DNA from: Sphaerosporella brunnea
Taxonomy: Eukaryota > Ascomycota > Pezizomycetes > Pezizales > Pyronemataceae
Length of the DNA stretch: 64,000 bases
Direction: 5' to 3'
Assembly (NCBI GenBank): GCA_008704415.1
Contig: VXIS01000125.1
Coordinates: forward strand, 57,253 to 121,252
The position numbers were made by a program, and so were the translations under genes. Shown one piece after another: positions 2,494-35,537 of this stretch (positions are counted from its first letter, which is position 1; every line of letters starts with the position of its first letter). The notes under the pieces are model-generated. The model was not told the DNA's origin, made no database searches, and was given only the letters and a program-made list of their open reading frames with translations.

Positions 2494-3681
2494 CTACCCC
2501 ACAAACGTGCAAACCGGCAAGCGATACACGCCGCCGACATCCCAATACCTCCGCCTCACGCCGGTCCACGTCTGCTCTGGGAGTTCGATCTCGACGTCCG
2601 TCCAGATGGTATCCAACCCGGCCTCGAGTAGATCCAGCTCCACGACGCGGGTATATACATCCCAGCTGACCCTTCTATCTGCGCCCAGCCCGTGGAAAAA
2701 CGAGAACCGCCCGCCGTCCGGCGAGAGCAGCGCGAGGACGTATTCGGTAAAGAATTCTTTGAGCGCCGTGTACTCCTCCGCAAAGGTGTCGAAGTAGATG
2801 GCGTCGAAGGTTGTGCCGGCAGCGATGATAGGGGCGAGAGCCTGTCGTGTCAGTTGTTTGTTGGGAGTGGGGTTTTTGGGGTAGGGGAATACCTCTTGCC
2901 ACCGACCCTCAAGCACCTCCACGCCCCTCTTCTCATACCACCCATCTTGCCGCAACTTCTTCAACACATCCGGGTGCGCTTCAACGATAGTATGCCGCAC
3001 GTCCTCATCCTCTCCCCACATCTCGCGTAACCGTTCCTGGAACGCAGAGTCGACAATCCCCATGCCAAAGCCGACGTTGAGCACCCGCTTCCCCGTCGCC
3101 CCGGTAGGCAGAAGCTCCGCAACCGACCGCTGCATAATCTTCGCCTCCCACGCCATCATCACACCGTTGTCGTCTGCGTCCAGTAGCTTTGCGTCGTCGT
3201 AGTGTAGCGACGAGTCGAGGTATTGCGAGGAGGTCACATCTTTCTCCCCGTCCTCGGCTTCCGACTCGGAATCGGACGCCAACGCATCCCACCCCCCACC
3301 CAGCCGCCCCATCAACAGCTCCGCCCTCACTCCCGCCTCGACAAGGAGCTCGTACAGCTCCTTTACACTCCCGCCAAGGCGCCACGCCACACAGCCCGGC
3401 GTCTCGCCGTTGGCGTCGAGGTCATTCCATATCGCACCGTTTTGCAGCAGTAGGCGCACGGTGTCTTCGGCGGCAGTGACTTCGGTGTCGCTGGCGGACG
3501 GCGAGAGCGAGGCGACGGCGGCGTGCAGCGGGGTGGTGAGTGTGATCGGGTGTTGGAGTGTTGCCGGATGGGTCTTGAGGAGGAGTGTGAGGCGCGCGAG
3601 GTCATGGGATGCGGCGGCGGAGAGGAGGGAGGTGGTGGCTTCGTCTGGGACATCTGCCGGCGGTGGGGCGTCGCTGGACAT
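2494..3681 (-). CDS. Protein arginine N-methyltransferase 2 (Rmt2 family), 2 exons
   Basis: S-adenosylmethionine-dependent enzyme; in yeast Rmt2 methylates the delta nitrogen of an arginine in ribosomal protein Rpl12. Seen here: an ankyrin-like N-terminal half (about residues 15-115, with LHAAVASLS and NGETPGCVAWR), an acidic linker near 137-147, then the methyltransferase fold with the SAM loop LNVGFGMGIVD (201-211), the acidic post-I motif VEAHP (233-237) and FDAIYFDTFAEEY after the splice. The start chosen is the Met beginning MSSDAPPP; an in-frame Met 29 codons upstream would add a low-complexity leader. A 51-nt intron (2892-2842; GTATTC donor, CTGAC branch, CAG acceptor) is in phase 0, so the unspliced frame stays open (395 versus 378 residues). 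Its 17 encoded residues are Pro/Asn-rich and interrupt the conserved block, so splicing is favoured. It lies 233 bp downstream of LSM12, same strand. Confidence 0.92.
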   Translation of the reverse strand: MSSDAPPPADVPDEATTSLLSAAASHDLARLTLLLKTHPATLQHPITLTTPLHAAVASLSPSASDTEVTAAEDTVRLLLQNGAIWNDLDANGETPGCVAWRLGGSVKELYELLVEAGVRAELLMGRLGGGWDALASDSESEAEDGEKDVTSSQYLDSSLHYDDAKLLDADDNGVMMAWEAKIMQRSVAELLPTGATGKRVLNVGFGMGIVDSAFQERLREMWGEDEDVRHTIVEAHPDVLKKLRQDGWYEKRGVEVLEGRWQEVFPYPKNPTPNKQLTRQALAPIIAAGTTFDAIYFDTFAEEYTALKEFFTEYVLALLSPDGGRFSFFHGLGADRRVSWDVYTRVVELDLLEAGLDTIWTDVEIELPEQTWTGVRRRYWDVGGVYRLPVCTFVG

Positions 3682-3914
3682 GCCTGGTGGGGTGGGATGA
3701 TGCAAATTGAGTCGTGAGTTGTTAGTTAGAGTAGAGTTCCGGGTAACTTTCAGATCACGCGATATCACTCATAGGTAAGGGATCACACGTATTGAACCCA
3801 ATTAGCAACAAACAGAAGACCTCCCATGCTAAGAAGACCCCCAGACATCACTCCTCCATGTCGGAGCCTTGCGACATTGCTCTCCGATTGTCCGAACTAT
3901 TTCCACCCGCACGA

Positions 3915-4653
3915 CTAACCGCCCTTTCTCTCAGCCGAAACCGGCGTCGCAGTTCTCCGCCCGCTCTCGAGCTTCCGTCTCTCTCCTTCGAGCTGGGATT
4001 GTTAGTACGAGACTGAAGATCGATTTCCTCAATACGTACCACCTGCTTGACCCTCTTGACCGCCTTCTGGTCGTTCCCCTTGACGTCGCTGATGCCGTAC
4101 GGCTCGGCGATGATGACCGTCTCCAGAACAACAATCTGCTTCTCAGCCCATCTGCACGGCATGCTGTCCTGTAGTCAGCCAAAGCATCCACAGCTCGGCC
4201 GCGAAACTCACGTGCGACTCAACGCATCGAAAATATCCTGGCCCTCCTTGGTGACGCCCTTCCCGATCCTCGCCAGCCTCTTCGCCTCTTCCGCCACCAG
4301 CTGCGCCTCGGTCTTGCCGGCCGGCGCAGCACCGACACGGCCGATCCTGGGCTCGGCAGCGGAGAAGCCTTTGCTCTGCGGCGCGCCGCCGATCACGGAG
4401 ACGTCTTTGAGAAAAGAGATCTTGACGATGCGGATGTCGTGCTGGTTCGCCGGGGTCGACGCGGTGAGCAGGGTTACGGTCGAGGTCAACGGGTCGTACG
4501 CGTAGATTGTGCCGGTGATGGTGTCGTCGAGGATGGTGGTCACCTTGACGCTGCAATCGATTAGAGAGAAGGAATAGCAGTCAGACTCCGGTGGGAGACG
4601 TACCGCAAACCTAAGGCCCAGTCCAGCGCGGACAGGCTCGGGTTGTAGCCTGC

Positions 4654-4701
<48 letters not shown>

Positions 4702-4743
4702 GCGGCTCGCGGCGGACGCGGCGGCGGTGGTGCGGCGGTCCAT
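3915..4743 (-). CDS. LSM12 homolog with polyglutamine N-terminus, 4 exons
   Basis: Lsm12 proteins carry an Lsm fold followed by an anticodon-binding-like domain and act with the ataxin-2 homolog Pbp1 in RNA metabolism. Exons 4743-4604, 4550-4212, 4163-4040 and 3992-3915 splice to 226 residues. The introns are 53, 48 and 47 bp; intron 3 has GTACGT, TACTAAC and CCCAG. Residues 15-30 are 16 glutamines from a CAG-type repeat (plus-strand CTG/TTG). The Lsm part reads LGLRVKVTTILDDTITG and continues through YAYDPLTSTVTLLT. The second domain reads IFDALSRTMPCRW and ends in RVKQVLEGERRKLESG. Splicing brings LGLR next to VKVTT and RVKQV next to LEGERRKLE, which supports all three introns. Upstream (4861-4890) lies a GTC/GAC trinucleotide run, probably in the 5' UTR. 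Confidence 0.9.
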
Positions 4744-5580
4744 TTTCGTGGACGTGTCGTTGAGGGGGAATTAGGGAGGGAGAGTTAAAGAGCGACTCGA
4801 TCGGATGGACGGGATACCACGACGGACCCGGGACGTGAGAGCTGGAGTCGTGTCGTCGTCAACTCGTGTCGTCGTCGTCGTCGTCGTCGATCGCGAGACG
4901 GGGGGGTTTTAGGGGGTGAAGGTGGCTTGGGTGGGGTGGGGGGTGGTGGGATTAGGCGATGACGCGGGTAAGAGAGAGAGTGTGTGAGTGAGAGCCGCAA
5001 AAGAGAGAAATACAGAAGAGCAAGAAAAAGCAGCAATAAAGATCGAGATCAAGATGAAAATGAATTCGCGATGAAATGATGGATTGCTGCTGTCAATTTC
5101 TGCTGAGCTGAGTTGGTCGCTGAGCATGTGCACGTGGAAGAGGAGACCAAAGGGAATCCGTAGAGCAAAGGCAACGGAGATGTCAATTGTGTTCTATTCA
5201 CTCCATCAAATGTGTTCATATATTCGTATATATGTATATGTAAGTACTTTCAACCCTTCCTTCCACCCAGCTCTCTACCCGTCGCGCTACTCCGCAGCCA
5301 CTCCGAATACACCTATGTACATACTTTATGTATATACCCCGGATTTGAGGGGCTCTACTCTGCGTGAGTGTAATAAATAATACTTGTCGGAAGAATAGTT
5401 GAAGAATTGAATTCATTGAATTCATTATGTATGTACATTCGCCGGCGAGTGATGCACGTGACAAACTTAGCTTCATGAGATTCGTGTGTTGATTCGTTTC
5501 ATTCAATCTCTACATCAATAGAGTATACGTATCTACATAGTTACTCTCTCCTCAATTGCATGCGGCCCGCTGAAACACGT

Positions 5581-9774: not shown

Positions 9775-11204
9775 TGTGCTGGTGGAGGAGATGGAAGTTT
9801 GAAGTACGCACACCGGGTTAAGCAGAAGCTTGAGACGGGCTGTCACGCTGACGGACTGAATATACAGGGTGGTTTTTATATGTTGGTGTCTCGAGGGACA
9901 AAGCCTCCAGCTTTGGCAGCCATTGGGGAAGGTGGGGTTGAATGAGCTGACAAGGAAGAGTGTAGGAACGCTGGACGAAATGATTGGTCTGCGGTTGTGG
10001 ATTCAGGTGATGATAGCATGCAAGTGGATCTCGATTCTTTCTCTTTCAGCTGTTCTTTCTTTCAGCTGTTGTTACTTTCAGCTGTTGTTACTCTCAGCTG
10101 TTGTTACTTTCAGCTGTTGTTACTTTCAGCTGTTGTTTCTTTCAGCTCGTCGATGATGATAGGAAGTTGATGCGACCCCACTCGGCAGATGAGGGATTAT
10201 ACTCGGATATGGATGTTCCAATTGGAACTCGATCTGGAATGAAGAATAAGCGCAGCGGAACAGCGCTACCGACCTATATGCAGATATGCACAGAAAGCCA
10301 GAAAAATACACTGTCTTGACATTTATACCTTCCTTAATTCTGCTATATACTGATCTCTAGACCTCACCCTGTTGATTTAGAACCCCTGTAGTTGTCCAAT
10401 TTTCGCTTCCCTCTCCGAGTAGCATGGGAAGTCGTTGATCAGGTCGGAGCGGCGATGTGAGCAAGTTGCCGGCCCTCGTTGCTTGAATGCACCCTTTGGC
10501 TCGGTGGACGCAAAGTACTAGTACCAGATGGCGTTTCCGGGATAAAGGTCCTTGCGGGGAAGCGGCCATCACTGCATGCAAGGGCAAGTAACCAAGGGAT
10601 TCATTGGCTTCTTCAGCTTCTCCTGGCAGTTTCTTGTTCGGCGAGCATTTTCGTTTGCGCACATTTGACGATCTAGATCGTCGACCGCTTTCAGCCGACG
10701 GCATCGCGGAGCACTTATAGGCTCACATATTGCATGATGTTGCCGCCCCCGCTTCCGAGTGAGCAAACAAGTAACACCTGGCGAATTGATTGGCGCTAAA
10801 TCCCGCACATGCAGAGCGGGTCGGGAAACGATATCTTAGACAGTCGTGCAGCAGCTGAGAAGCGAGCTGAGATTTTAGTTGAGCAGCGGCCGACGAAAGC
10901 AGGCGGGGCCGCCTGTGGTATGATGAACCGAAAAAAAAAACAAAAAAGAAGCATCGGCTGACGCGTTCCGCATCAAGTGGTCGCCATTGCGTAATGTCGT
11001 CGCAAACTCTGTGCGAGCTGAAGAAGTGGGGTCATAGCCAAGCTTTTGCATCTCAAAAAAATGGGGGGCAGCTAATCCGGAGGAGACGACGGTCTGTTAA
11101 ATATATCGCTCCAAATCCAAATTTTACCCTATCGACTGCTTTTCAAGCGTGTGTCGTTCCGCGCTCAACATCCACGTTTCCCCAAATACACTTACTCGCG
11201 CATC
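9775..11204. other. intergenic with a short minisatellite
   Basis: No gene recognised. It holds the promoter side of the deaminase-like gene (9775-9870), the TTTCAGCTG minisatellite (separate entry), and the upstream region of the small orphan at 11205, including an A-rich run near 10930. Confidence 0.4.
10043..10147 (+). repeat. minisatellite, period about 16 bp (TTTCAGCTGTTGTTAC)
   Basis: About seven tandem units of TTTCAGCTGTTGTTAC with one-base variants, bounded by TCTTTCTC at the left and CTCGTCGATG at the right. Each unit carries a pyrimidine tract plus CAG. It lies in non-coding DNA upstream of the deaminase-like gene. Confidence 0.85.
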
Positions 11205-16780: not shown

Positions 16781-17575
16781 AGTGCCGGACACTTAGTTAG
16801 CGTCTTGGCAGGACTTGGCGAATGCCATGAGCCGTTACTAAGCATCGAGTGATGTGTAATGAGTGTGTGTTGTCATGCCGCTCCGCCAGCTTGCGACCCG
16901 TCCGCGCAGTTTTTTCGCCAAAACTACGAAGCACGGACGGCAGATCAGTGCTAGTCTGCTGTAAAATGCGTATTCTTGAAGCCGAACGGGACTTTCAGGA
17001 AGAAAAGTCCATGCTCAAACACATTATCACCGCCGCTGGTCACGAAGTCATGTTCTACCCCAAGTTTCATTATGGGCTCAACTATATTGAATATTACTGG
17101 GCTGCTCTGAACAAGTATACGCGCGATAATTGCAAATACACCTTTCTTGAACTGGAGAAAAAGTCCTCGAGGCAATGGATTCTGTAAATCTAACCACCAT
17201 TCAAAGTTTTGCAGAGCGGAGCAAGAGAGGGATGATGGCATACATTAATGGTTTGTCTGCGGAGCCACGTGCTTATGCTGAAAAGCAGTACAAGTTAGGA
17301 GATGTGTTTGTGTAAAATCATTTACTGTCACTCGCCCTAAGTTATTCCTAAATAGGTCGTCGAGCCGCGGTCCAATGCAACCCACCAAAAACTAGTAATT
17401 TTCAAACTCCACCACCACGCCGCCAAGCTGAATTTCGCGACACAGTGCTTATTCTTTGAGTTCTATTCTATCGTTTTTGGGTCTTTAAATTAACTATTTT
17501 CTTATTGGAAGGTGGTGAAAAGGTCGGCGTGGGGTTATTCTGCGGGCGACCTACCCCAGCTAAGTGTCCAGCACT
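16781..17575 (+). mobile_element. Tc1/mariner-like DNA transposon relic (795 bp)
   Basis: Terminal inverted repeats: left AGTGCCGGACACTTAG at 16781-16796, right CTAAGTGTCCAGCACT at 17560-17575 (one mismatch). Between them lies only the C-terminal third of a transposase, so the element is internally deleted. No convincing target duplication is visible (flanks GG and CT). Confidence 0.65.
16963..17315 (+). pseudogene. DDE transposase C-terminal fragment, frameshifted
   Basis: The frame from 16963 reads CCKMRILEAERDFQ and then FYPKFHYGLNYIEYYWAALNKY. The LNxIE..W block contains the third catalytic acidic residue of Tc1/mariner/IS630-type DDE transposases. Near 17160 the conserved reading moves by one frame (VLEAMDSVNLTTIQSFAERSK) and ends at TAA 17313-17315 after KQYKLGDVFV. 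The first two catalytic aspartates are missing with the deleted N-terminal region. This is a fossil, not a functional enzyme. Confidence 0.7.
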
Positions 17576-24240: not shown

Positions 24241-26026
24241 CTACATGCCGCTTGACTGCTTGAGGGTGTCAGGATTCAGTTGGGCATCGATGCACTTCTG
24301 CTCCTGCTTGCATCCAATGAGACGGTTGACTAGTTCGGGGTGGTTTGCCTCGGTAGCCACTTTCGCTGTGCAGTCAACGTTGGTGCCACAGGCCTTCATC
24401 GCCTCGACCACTTCCCTGTCATCACGCTTTTGGTGAATAGGGCCCTTGCCGTTGATGTTCTTGGCGATATCTGGGGACCTCTCAGCACATAAACAAGTGG
24501 TAGAGGGCGAAGAAAAACTTACCAACCTCGTCGAACGAGTTGCCGGCGTTGAGGCCGTTAAACTGGCGCTTCTGGTGGATGGGGCCCTTGCCACCAATGT
24601 TCTTGGCAATATCTAAACGATGTGATGAGCACGACTACACTGCTTGGGGTGTGAAAAGAATGGAACATACCGATGTCGTCAATCAAGTTCCCAGCATTGA
24701 TTCCGTCCATCTGGCGCTTCTGGTGAATCGGACCCTTGCCATGGATATTCTTAGCAATATCCACTTCGTCAATCAGGTTTCCTGCGTTTAAGCCATCCAT
24801 CTGACGCTTCTGGTGAATCGGTCCCTTGCCATGGATATTCTTAGCAATATCCACTTCGTCAATCAGGTTTCCTGCGTTTAAGCCATCCATCTGACGCTTC
24901 TGGTGAATCGGTCCCTTGCCATGGATATTCTTAGCAATATCCACTTCGTCAATCAGGTTTCCTGCGTTTAAGCCATCCATCTGGCGCTTATCCACGGGGA
25001 ACGTCTGCAAGTGGCCATCTTTCTTTTCCTTCTCGGTCTCCTCGGTCTTCTTGGGCATACCGGGAACACGGATGCCGTCATGGGTGCGACGGAAGTTTCC
25101 AATGATGGGAGCGGCAATTGCGTCTCCGTCGTGGGAGAAGACGGGGCCATCGCTGACGGTTGGCTGTCCGCGTGCCAGGAGCTCGTCTAGCTCCTTGGGA
25201 GGTGCCTCGACCGGGCCGGCCTTATTGGTTTTGGGGGGTTCCATCCCCAGTTTCTTGTCCGCGTCCGCTCTCATCTTTGCTGCGTCCTCCTTGGCCTTGG
25301 CCTTGGCCGCCTCATCGTCGTTCTTCTGCGGTTTGGGCAGGAGCGAGCCAGAAAGACCCTCTAGCCCTAGCTGCCGCTTCATGTTGTGACTCTGGCCGGC
25401 CATAGGCAAAAGCTGCCGCTTAGGTTTGTCGGCCTTCTTCTTCTCAGGGACAAGGCCTAGCGATTCGCCGCTGACCTTGCCGACAACGGGGAGGCTAGGA
25501 GCATCGGGGATTTCGTTGTCATCAACCTGACGTTTCGGGTGTTCGGGCTTGGGCCTGGGGAGAACGTTCTTCTCAAGGCTCTTGACGGTCGGGAACTCAG
25601 GGACGTCAGGAACTTGGGGTTTATCCTCTACGCGCTTGCCGAGCAAGCCACCGAGGATAGGAATTTTCTGAGGCTGCGGAACCTCGGGCTTTCCTTCCGA
25701 GTCGGCTTTCGGTTTGCCCTCTGGCATTCCATCTGCACGCTTATAGGGGCGCAGGGTAGGCTTGAGCTCATCTTCCAGGTCACGGGAGCCGAGTTTCGGG
25801 ATTTTGTCGGTGACAACACCACTAGGGTTGGAAGTATCGACACCGGCGATCTGGGCCTCTGGAACAGTAGCCGGGAGCTGTCGGCGTTCAGCTTCTGGGC
25901 AGTGTTAGTAACTTCTCCATAGGAAAGCGAGTTGAACTTACGTGCTCCCTGTCTATCGGACACAGGGGCCGCCAGAGCAGTGGCGGCAAGGGCAAGGGCG
26001 AGAAGGGTAGAGAACGAGGTCTTCAT
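24241..26026 (-). CDS. Secreted Kex2-processed repeat precursor (KEP-type), 4 exons
   Basis: Exons 26026-25942, 25894-24671, 24612-24523 and 24470-24241 give 542 residues. The introns are 47, 58 and 52 bp; intron 1 has GTAAGT and TACTAAC. Residues 1-20 are a signal peptide (MKTSFSTLLALALAATALAA). Residues 21-332 are Pro/Lys-rich and carry further Lys-Arg sites (YKR, GKR, PKRQV, PKRQL, MKRQL). Residues 333-482 are five 30-residue units, each starting QMDG or QFNG and ending GPIHQKR. Residues 483-542 form a tail with two C-x5-C pairs (Cys494/500, 520/526). In fungal precursors of this layout (alpha-factor-like pheromones, repellents, dikaritin precursors), Kex2 cuts after KR. Released units here would begin with Gln and could form pyroglutamate. 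No UstY-type (DUF3328) oxidase gene is visible nearby, so a cyclised RiPP product is not supported. Function unknown. Confidence 0.88.
24714..24983 (-). repeat. three 90-bp coding tandem repeats
   Basis: Units 24983-24894, 24893-24804 and 24803-24714 are identical at the protein level and differ at about one base in the compared stretch. Each encodes one peptide unit. Two further diverged units follow (24713 onward), and each of those is split by an intron at the same codon. Such near identity indicates recent expansion or gene conversion. Confidence 0.95.
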
Positions 26027-33841: not shown

Positions 33842-34259
33842 TGTCACGGCGCAAGGTCAAGTGAAGGCTCGGCGTTAGTGTTAGGGTGTCACGTGACATG
33901 GCGCACTGCGGTCACGTAACGGCGGGGTATATATAGAGCGGCTTTGTTTGTTTTGTTCTTTCTTTCTTTCCTTCTTTCTTCACTGAACCTTTGTACTACC
34001 ATCTAAGCACATCTGTTCACCTTCTCGAACCTTGTCCTTGAATCCCGTGCTTGGCACCTCTTAGTCTTCGTCTCGAACCCCGTCCGATACACGTGCTCAG
34101 CACGCCCGGATCCCGACTCTGATTTCCGACTCCCGTATCCAAACCTCGTTTCCAACTCGACTCCAATCTCCGTGCGCAACCCCCATCTCCGACCCATATC
34201 CTGCGGTTGCACGAGTACTTTGGGTCCCCTCCGACTACCCTCCAACCTATACCGTTACA
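33842..34259 (+). repeat. 5' LTR of element A (418 bp)
   Basis: TGTCACGG...GTTACA. It contains two E-box-like palindromes 23 bp apart (TCACGTGA at 33889, TCACGTAA at 33912), a TATATATA box near 33930, a CT-rich tract, and ACTGAACCT at 33982-33990, the presumed transcript start that is complementary to the primer-binding site. Confidence 0.88.
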
Positions 34260-34261
34260 GT

Positions 34262-34270
34262 AGGTTCAGT
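34262..34270 (+). promoter_or_regulatory. Self-priming primer-binding site, element A
   Basis: AGGTTCAGT begins 2 nt after the LTR and is the exact reverse complement of ACTGAACCT within the LTR (33982-33990). This is the Tf1/sushi-type self-priming layout, in which the transcript 5' end primes reverse transcription. No TGG-type tRNA primer site follows the LTR. Confidence 0.75.
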
Positions 34271-34316
34271 CTACACAAGCCCAACCTACTCATCTTGTCT
34301 TGACACCACATCCTGC

Positions 34317-35537
34317 ATGATGGCTACCCATCGAGCCGTCCTCCTTCCCGCCGAACTCTGGACCGCCATCGAAGTGGGTGATCAAGCACCTACAGGAGAC
34401 GTTTCCCAAGAACAAAGCCGCCAACAACTACATGACTTTCACCACATCGCCCAGCAACTTGTCACCTGCGGACTACCGCCCAATCTGCAGGAGGAATTAG
34501 AAGAGACCCGGGCTGAGCTCCGCACGGCTGAGATTGAATGGAACACAGCTCGTATTACCGTTGCTGAATTACGACAACAGCTACAGACCGCCACAACCCA
34601 GCTCACCCAGGCCTTGGCGATCGCCAATGCTCAGGTCCACGAGAATTAACAAGGTGGCGGTGGACAGAGTGGGTTCCCCGACGTGCCTATTTTTGATGGC
34701 AGCCAGCCTGAACGGTTGCGGACCTGGATCTTACAGCTTCGCAATAAGCTATCTGCTCAGCCTAACCGATACCCGTCGGAGCAAATTCAACTCAGATACG
34801 CGTTTAGCAGATTGGAAGGAGCAGCTCTTGACCAGCTCCGCTCCTACGTTGAAGAAGACACTGGAATCATTACTCTTGCATCCTTGAATGACCTGTTGAC
34901 GATCCGTCAACAAGCTTACGATGATCCCAATCGAGCTCGCACCGCTGTACAAGAGATTCGCCGCCTGCGCCAGAAGAACCAGGCCTTCTCAACTTACCTA
35001 GCCAAATTCCGTTGGCTGTTGGCTGACCTCGACTGGACAGAATCAGCAGAAAAAGAACAGCTCTATGAAGGGCTGTCAGAAGAGATGAAGGACGCTCTGC
35101 TCTACCTCAAGGCCAACGACGACTCCCTTGCAGCCTTTGTTACCCTCTGCAAGGAGATTGACAACAGGATTTGTGCCCGAACAGCTGAACGCAAGGCGAT
35201 AACTTCCCGCACTACCGTTCAGCAGCGCAACATTACCCTTCCTACACCTCGGGTTGCCGCTCCTGCCACCAAGGCCCCTACGACCAACCACCCTACCAAC
35301 TTCAATAGTGGAAACTACGATTCAGCTCCGATGGAGCTTTTGGGTGCTCAACGCGATGCCGAACGCAAGAGGGTTAAGGAAGAAAGGTTGGCCAAGGGAC
35401 AGTGCACGTACTGTGGATCCGACCAGCACTTCCGCCTTGAGTGCCCTCGCCGCATAGCTGCTGAAGCTCGTCGTCTCCGTGCTGCGGAAGCATCTATTGC
35501 GACCGCCGTACCCGCCCTCGAGCTTTCGGAAAACTAA
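34317..35537 (+). pseudogene. Gag of element A, one internal stop
   Basis: Starts at ATG 34317 (MMATHRAVLLPAELW). A TAA at 34647-34649 interrupts an otherwise open frame that resumes through FDGSQPERLRTWILQLRNKL and ends at TAA 35535-35537. The nucleocapsid knuckle CTYCGSDQHFRLEC (C-x2-C-x4-H-x4-C) is intact. It belongs to the same family as the gag of R2 and R3. Confidence 0.85.

Follow-up and report, generated by a model that had tools for sequence, protein, structure and literature searches.

A probable Kex2-processed repeat protein with five 30-residue units encoded in the genome of the ectomycorrhizal fungus Sphaerosporella brunnea

We analysed a stretch of 64,000 nucleotides (the window) on contig C30 of the Sphaerosporella brunnea genome (50.6 Mb, 640 contigs). 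The species is described as an ectomycorrhizal member of the Pyronemataceae (Pezizales) that is frequent on truffle-inoculated seedlings, and its genome and transcriptome data are deposited as SRP214822 and SRP215074 (PMC6908789). The minus strand from 26026 to 24241 holds a four-exon gene for a precursor of 542 amino acids, and the spliced product matches the S. brunnea hypothetical protein FN846DRAFT_1022435 of NCBI with 100% identity over 100% of its length. Protein and DNA searches agree on one locus in the genome. All three introns are of the GT-AG type and in phase 1, with lengths of 47, 58 and 52 nt, and the five units of a repeat array become visible only once all three are removed. 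The features of the gene are the following:

24241..26026, minus strand: whole gene; exons 26026-25942, 25894-24671, 24612-24523 and 24470-24241 (including the stop codon)
25970..26026, minus strand: signal peptide MKTSFSTLLALALAATALA, cleavage placed by eye before AP
24984..25969, minus strand: pro-region, including intron 1, with seven KR/RR sites ahead of the KR that would free unit 1
25895..25941, minus strand: intron 1, 47 nt, GT-AG, phase 1
24894..24983, minus strand: unit 1 QMDGLNAGNLIDEVDIAKNIHGKGPIHQKR, 30 residues
24804..24893, minus strand: unit 2, DNA the same as unit 1
24714..24803, minus strand: unit 3, protein the same as units 1 and 2, two synonymous changes
24566..24713, minus strand: unit 4 QMDGINAGNLIDDIDIAKNIGGKGPIHQKR, interrupted by intron 2
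24613..24670, minus strand: intron 2, 58 nt, after base 1 of unit codon 15
24523..24612, minus strand: exon 3, 90 nt, both ends in phase 1, equal to one circularly permuted unit
24424..24565, minus strand: unit 5 QFNGLNAGNSFDEVDIAKNINGKGPIHQKR, interrupted by intron 3
24471..24522, minus strand: intron 3, 52 nt, codon and phase the same as for intron 2
24244..24423, minus strand: C-terminal tail, 60 residues with four Cys, C-x6-C ... C-x5-C (ACGTNVDC, GCKQEQKC)

Concerning the surroundings of the gene, the ORFs scanned from 16.8 to 34.65 kb give no Pfam family above the cut-off; weak matches are seen to DDE_3 at 16831-17184 (E 0.0056) and to a coil-type domain at 34065-34646. The flank scan took in 29 of 54 ORFs with 150 aa or more and 20 of 28 with 100-149 aa (one of the 28 lies inside the gene), and nothing among these 49 ORFs suggests a biosynthetic cluster. 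Next to the peptide gene, from 34650 to 61385, both strands carry many ORFs with Ty3-type retrotransposon domains (gag, protease, RT, RNase H and integrase). The window also contains, on the minus strand, an LSM12-like ORF that matches an LSM and an anticodon-binding domain (4211-4858) and an ORF matching the ankyrin repeat (2497-3768), as well as a 16-nt tandem repeat of 6.6 copies (10043-10147).

The precursor begins with a signal peptide, which an earlier note on this DNA had claimed and which both inspection by eye and hydropathy support: the top 19-residue windows begin at residues 4 and 5 (mean 1.79), compared with 0.75 for the best window past residue 40, and no further membrane span is seen by these two means. 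The pro-region is rich in Lys and Pro. In the whole precursor Gln stands directly after nine of the 13 KR/RR sites; outside the array it does so at four of seven, whereas only 28 of all 542 residues are Gln (binomial p = 2.2e-4), which agrees with the KRQ junctions that had been noted upstream of the array. A single-copy pro-region fragment of 12 residues, QLLPMAGQSHNM, lies between two KR sites (25374-25415, minus strand). The neighbouring fragments 4 and 5 (34 and 38 aa; 25416-25631, minus strand) align with each other above shuffles at p = 0.005, uncorrected for the 55 pairs compared, and are perhaps a decayed second repeat array, although the alignment does not establish this. The tail has no family match, and its model (75 residues) is helical at low confidence (mean pLDDT 51).

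All five units are 30 residues long, start with Gln and end in HQKR (pattern Q...GPIHQKR), and the spliced translation of the minus strand bears out the tandem array described earlier. KR is present at every unit junction, and the next residues are QM or QF. Across the five units 22 of the 30 positions are invariant, including Q1, GKGPIHQ and KR. For the intronless part of the array (24676-24989), Tandem Repeats Finder gives a period of 90, 3.5 copies and a score of 551, a signal far above chance. The main core has a net charge of -2, no Cys and a largest 18-residue hydrophobic moment of 0.24. Units 1-4 contain no Phe, Trp or Tyr, unit 5 contains two Phe, and Tyr is found in no unit.

Comparing the units with one another, synonymous differences among units 1, 4 and 5 amount to 13-14.5 of about 18 sites and non-synonymous ones to 6-10 of about 72 sites (dN 0.09-0.15), with Fisher p values on rounded counts of 9.6e-9 (1 vs 4), 7.1e-8 (1 vs 5) and 3.1e-6 (4 vs 5). 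As the peptide is kept while most synonymous sites have diverged, the unit peptide, including Q1, GKGPIHQ and KR, is most likely held by purifying selection; conservation is comparable here only between repeats of one gene, because no homologue was found outside S. brunnea. The wide divergence of silent sites around a kept peptide is evidence for function despite the lack of a found relative. Units 1-3 are a recent expansion, as the DNA of unit 2 equals that of unit 1 and unit 3 carries only the two synonymous changes, while units 1, 4 and 5 are mutually old. Introns 2 and 3 share codon and phase, so that exon 3 is exactly one unit. The simplest reading would be that the ancestral unit carried the intron, which was lost in the recent intronless triplet; a gain of the intron before units 4 and 5 split is a possible alternative. 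Skipping of exon 3 would remove one unit and leave the frame intact.

This layout is that of the Kex2-processed repeat proteins (KEPs), which Le Marquer et al. defined in 2019 (1193 KEPs in 226 species; PMC6339444) and of which Umemura listed 7878 in 2020, from 1345 of 1461 strains (PMC7329392). The quoted criteria are at least three repeats of 8-100 aa each between dibasic sites (PMC7329392) and an array comprising at least 15% of the protein (PMC6339444). The S. brunnea precursor has five units of 30 aa, and its array makes up 150 of 542 residues, or 27.7% against the minimum of 15%. With the KEPs of both papers, as described there, it shares the signal peptide, the three or more near-identical units between KR sites and the array share above 15%. 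We consider it quite likely that the precursor is a KEP. It may differ from the described KEPs in having two units split by an intron at the same codon, with the exon equal to a unit, and in the additional Gln-starting junctions of the pro-region and the four-Cys tail. Its core is also unlike any conserved core quoted in the published text that was compared with it.

An extracellular repeat protein that stays uncleaved, in which KR between the units is a structural constraint, is an unlikely alternative reading of the same array. Purifying selection on the units is also expected for such a protein, so that selection by itself is no proof of cleavage, and the tail, with its Cys residues, could fold as a domain. 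However, dibasic sites split the pro-region too, with the excess of following Gln given above, and the single-sequence model of three units indicates no stable repeat fold (mean pLDDT 45.5, pTM 0.10), such models being weak evidence.

As a KEP, the precursor would be processed by a route to which its anatomy points. It would enter the secretory pathway and be cleaved after KR/RR by a Kex2-type protease; a Kex1-type carboxypeptidase would then trim off KR, and five copies of a linear 28-residue peptide (Q...GPIHQ), three identical and two variants, would be secreted. The N-terminal Gln would probably be converted to pyroglutamate, and the peptide would most likely act extracellularly, as a signal or interaction peptide specific to the lineage. 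Expression, cleavage, trimming, cyclisation and role are all steps that we infer; the product is most likely a linear extracellular peptide, and the chance that its role is in signalling as such we place somewhat below even.

A candidate for the Kex2-type protease and one for a glutaminyl cyclase are found in the genome. A match to the Kex2-type P-domain (P_proprotein) on contig C232 has an E-value of 2.5e-14 and covers positions 1-57 of 86, with one stop codon inside, where an intron is possible. Peptidase_M28 has 12 matches, and three of these ORFs were compared with PDB sequences. Two are aminopeptidase-like. The third, on contig C229 (L018:1800-2342), matches mostly glutaminyl-peptide cyclotransferases (best E 3.6e-31), with a 'peptide hydrolase' ranked first (E 3.1e-34). 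The genome search with the Glu_cyclase_2 family gave no match. Neurospora has two glutaminyl cyclases, homologues of the mammalian ones, which form pyroglutamate on secreted enzymes (PMC5241404). Given the P-domain match and the glutaminyl-cyclase-like ORF, pyroglutamate on the S. brunnea peptide would be plausible. Vogt et al. (2022) reported Coprinopsis cinerea KEP peptides with N-terminal pyroglutamate, also when expressed in Pichia, among them a 20-residue product of KEP 497993 that was detected upon Pichia expression (PMC9769878). The S. brunnea product would share with KEP 497993 and others that it is a linear peptide with Gln first; C. cinerea, in contrast, is a basidiomycete, its KEPs have another sequence and its peptides were detected, whereas the S. 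brunnea peptide is predicted from the gene. Rhizophagus irregularis, a mycorrhizal fungus of another phylum and with another symbiosis, has SP7-like proteins that are likewise described as Kex2-site repeat precursors, and the likeness considered here is one of layout (PMC5293756). The route that the earlier note had put forward, with Kex2 cleavage and Gln-starting peptides that could cyclise, thus fits the anatomy, the matched enzyme genes and the measurements of Vogt et al., whereas its suggestion of an undescribed kind of peptide gives way to the class defined in 2019 and listed in 2020.

The precursor itself is apparently lineage-specific, although its kind is already known and common in fungi. 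Homologue searches, with 8000 and 7998 candidates scored from lists of at least that length and 4 in a third search, list only the protein itself among the matches, and the status of orphan is to be taken as valid at the sensitivity used only. Pfam gives three matches to the precursor, all short of the cut-off (best E 0.035), and the NCBIfam and PDB sequence searches return no family. In the literature search, 'FN846DRAFT' occurs in no paper found, and the only one with both Sphaerosporella and Kex2 is Umemura (2020). As the genus is in that survey, the precursor is probably in its supplementary table, and it is probably one of the 2560 KEPs that stand alone there without homologues (PMC7329392), with which it shares being a single-copy gene without relatives. 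Table 2 of the survey places Sphaerosporella under pheromone type G-2, membership of a type being by reciprocal BLASTP at E < 1e-30 and coverage >70% (PMC7329392). Since the present protein has no found relative, the gene placed in G-2 should be a different one.

This bears on the reading of the locus as the alpha-type mating pheromone precursor of S. brunnea, which we regard as very unlikely. The layout is the same as that of ascomycete alpha-pheromone precursors, a Ste2-type receptor gene is present in the genome, and the pro-region fragment QLLPMAGQSHNM contains GQS, as does a Neurospora pheromone, and in this resembles ascomycete alpha-pheromones. The core, however, is with 28 residues longer than known alpha pheromones, it contains neither Cys nor Trp, and the KR at the units is followed by QM or QF and not by Ste13 dipeptides (XA/XP). 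Known alpha pheromones are given as 9-24 aa in size, and the quoted types have two Cys or PYGxPxG (PMC6339444); the core lies outside this range and has neither. The search for another alpha-pheromone gene in the genome was without success. A first DNA motif search gave 2 genome matches (control 1) and a second 14 (control 10), and a precursor-like locus is absent among the 11 of these 14 matches that were read (six on the plus and five on the minus strand); the other three are L027, whose matched letters are those of L026, and two that have no locus. As the fungus's own pheromone gene was not found, the pheromone reading is lowered only. Pheromone genes are described as weakly conserved in ascomycetes and as an exception among the sexual genes found in Pyronema confluens (PMC3778014).

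Even less probable is a dikaritin-type RiPP precursor (of the ustiloxin, phomopsin or asperipin kind). It would have the same precursor layout, but the units have no Tyr, and aromatic residues of any kind are missing from units 1-4. None of the 49 ORFs of the window covered by the Pfam scan matches UstYa (DUF3328), and the sole match reported in the genome, with three candidates scored, is on contig C334 and not C30. The dikaritin reading is rejected on the missing core Tyr and the lack of UstYa among the ORFs scanned nearby. The UstYa match itself (G000:C334:164772-165161, L004) has five stop codons within the matched stretch. The core thus fails what was tested for both pheromones and dikaritins, in line with the earlier note, to which no matching pheromone or dikaritin core was known. 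A mimic of plant CLE hormones, prompted by GPIHQ, is also rejected, as its score is not above shuffles: within unit 1, the 12-mer closest to the CLE dodecapeptide motif, AKNIHGKGPIHQ, has a score of -2.7 compared with 40.9 for a CLE, and 10.6% of shuffles equal it, the CLE comparison set being a rough one.

Concerning other functions, peptides of the Rep1 (repellent) kind would coat hyphae or aid attachment instead of signalling. Several further pro-region fragments would also be released, which would suit a bulk product, but the units have a net charge of -2 and a modest helical moment. The precursor also has no family match. We hold a Rep1-like role for possible but doubtful. An antimicrobial precursor seems less probable still: the authors of the KEP knock-outs propose roles towards the biotic environment (PMC9769878), but the negative charge, the lack of Cys and the low hydrophobic moment of the core speak against it. 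For the antimicrobial or cell-wall role mentioned earlier we thus have no positive evidence here. C. cinerea KEP knock-outs showed no detectable phenotype (PMC9769878), and a role may therefore be hard to show.

Judged from its sequence, the precursor looks made for cleavage that yields a 28-residue peptide in five copies. Tentatively, this pyroglutamate peptide could serve Sphaerosporella as a signal specific to the lineage, from hypha to hypha or to the tree root, and come from a precursor whose copy number changes by whole exons; exon 3 is one unit and in phase at both ends, so that its skipping or duplication would alter the peptide dose with the frame unbroken. The exact masses of the predicted products make a direct search possible: the calculated monoisotopic values are 2979.487 for units 1-3 in the pyroGlu form, 2899.450 for unit 4 and 2979.447 for unit 5, the last being almost isobaric with units 1-3. 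If expressed, this chemically simple peptide would join the few studied products of fungal KEPs, and would do so from an ectomycorrhizal fungus.
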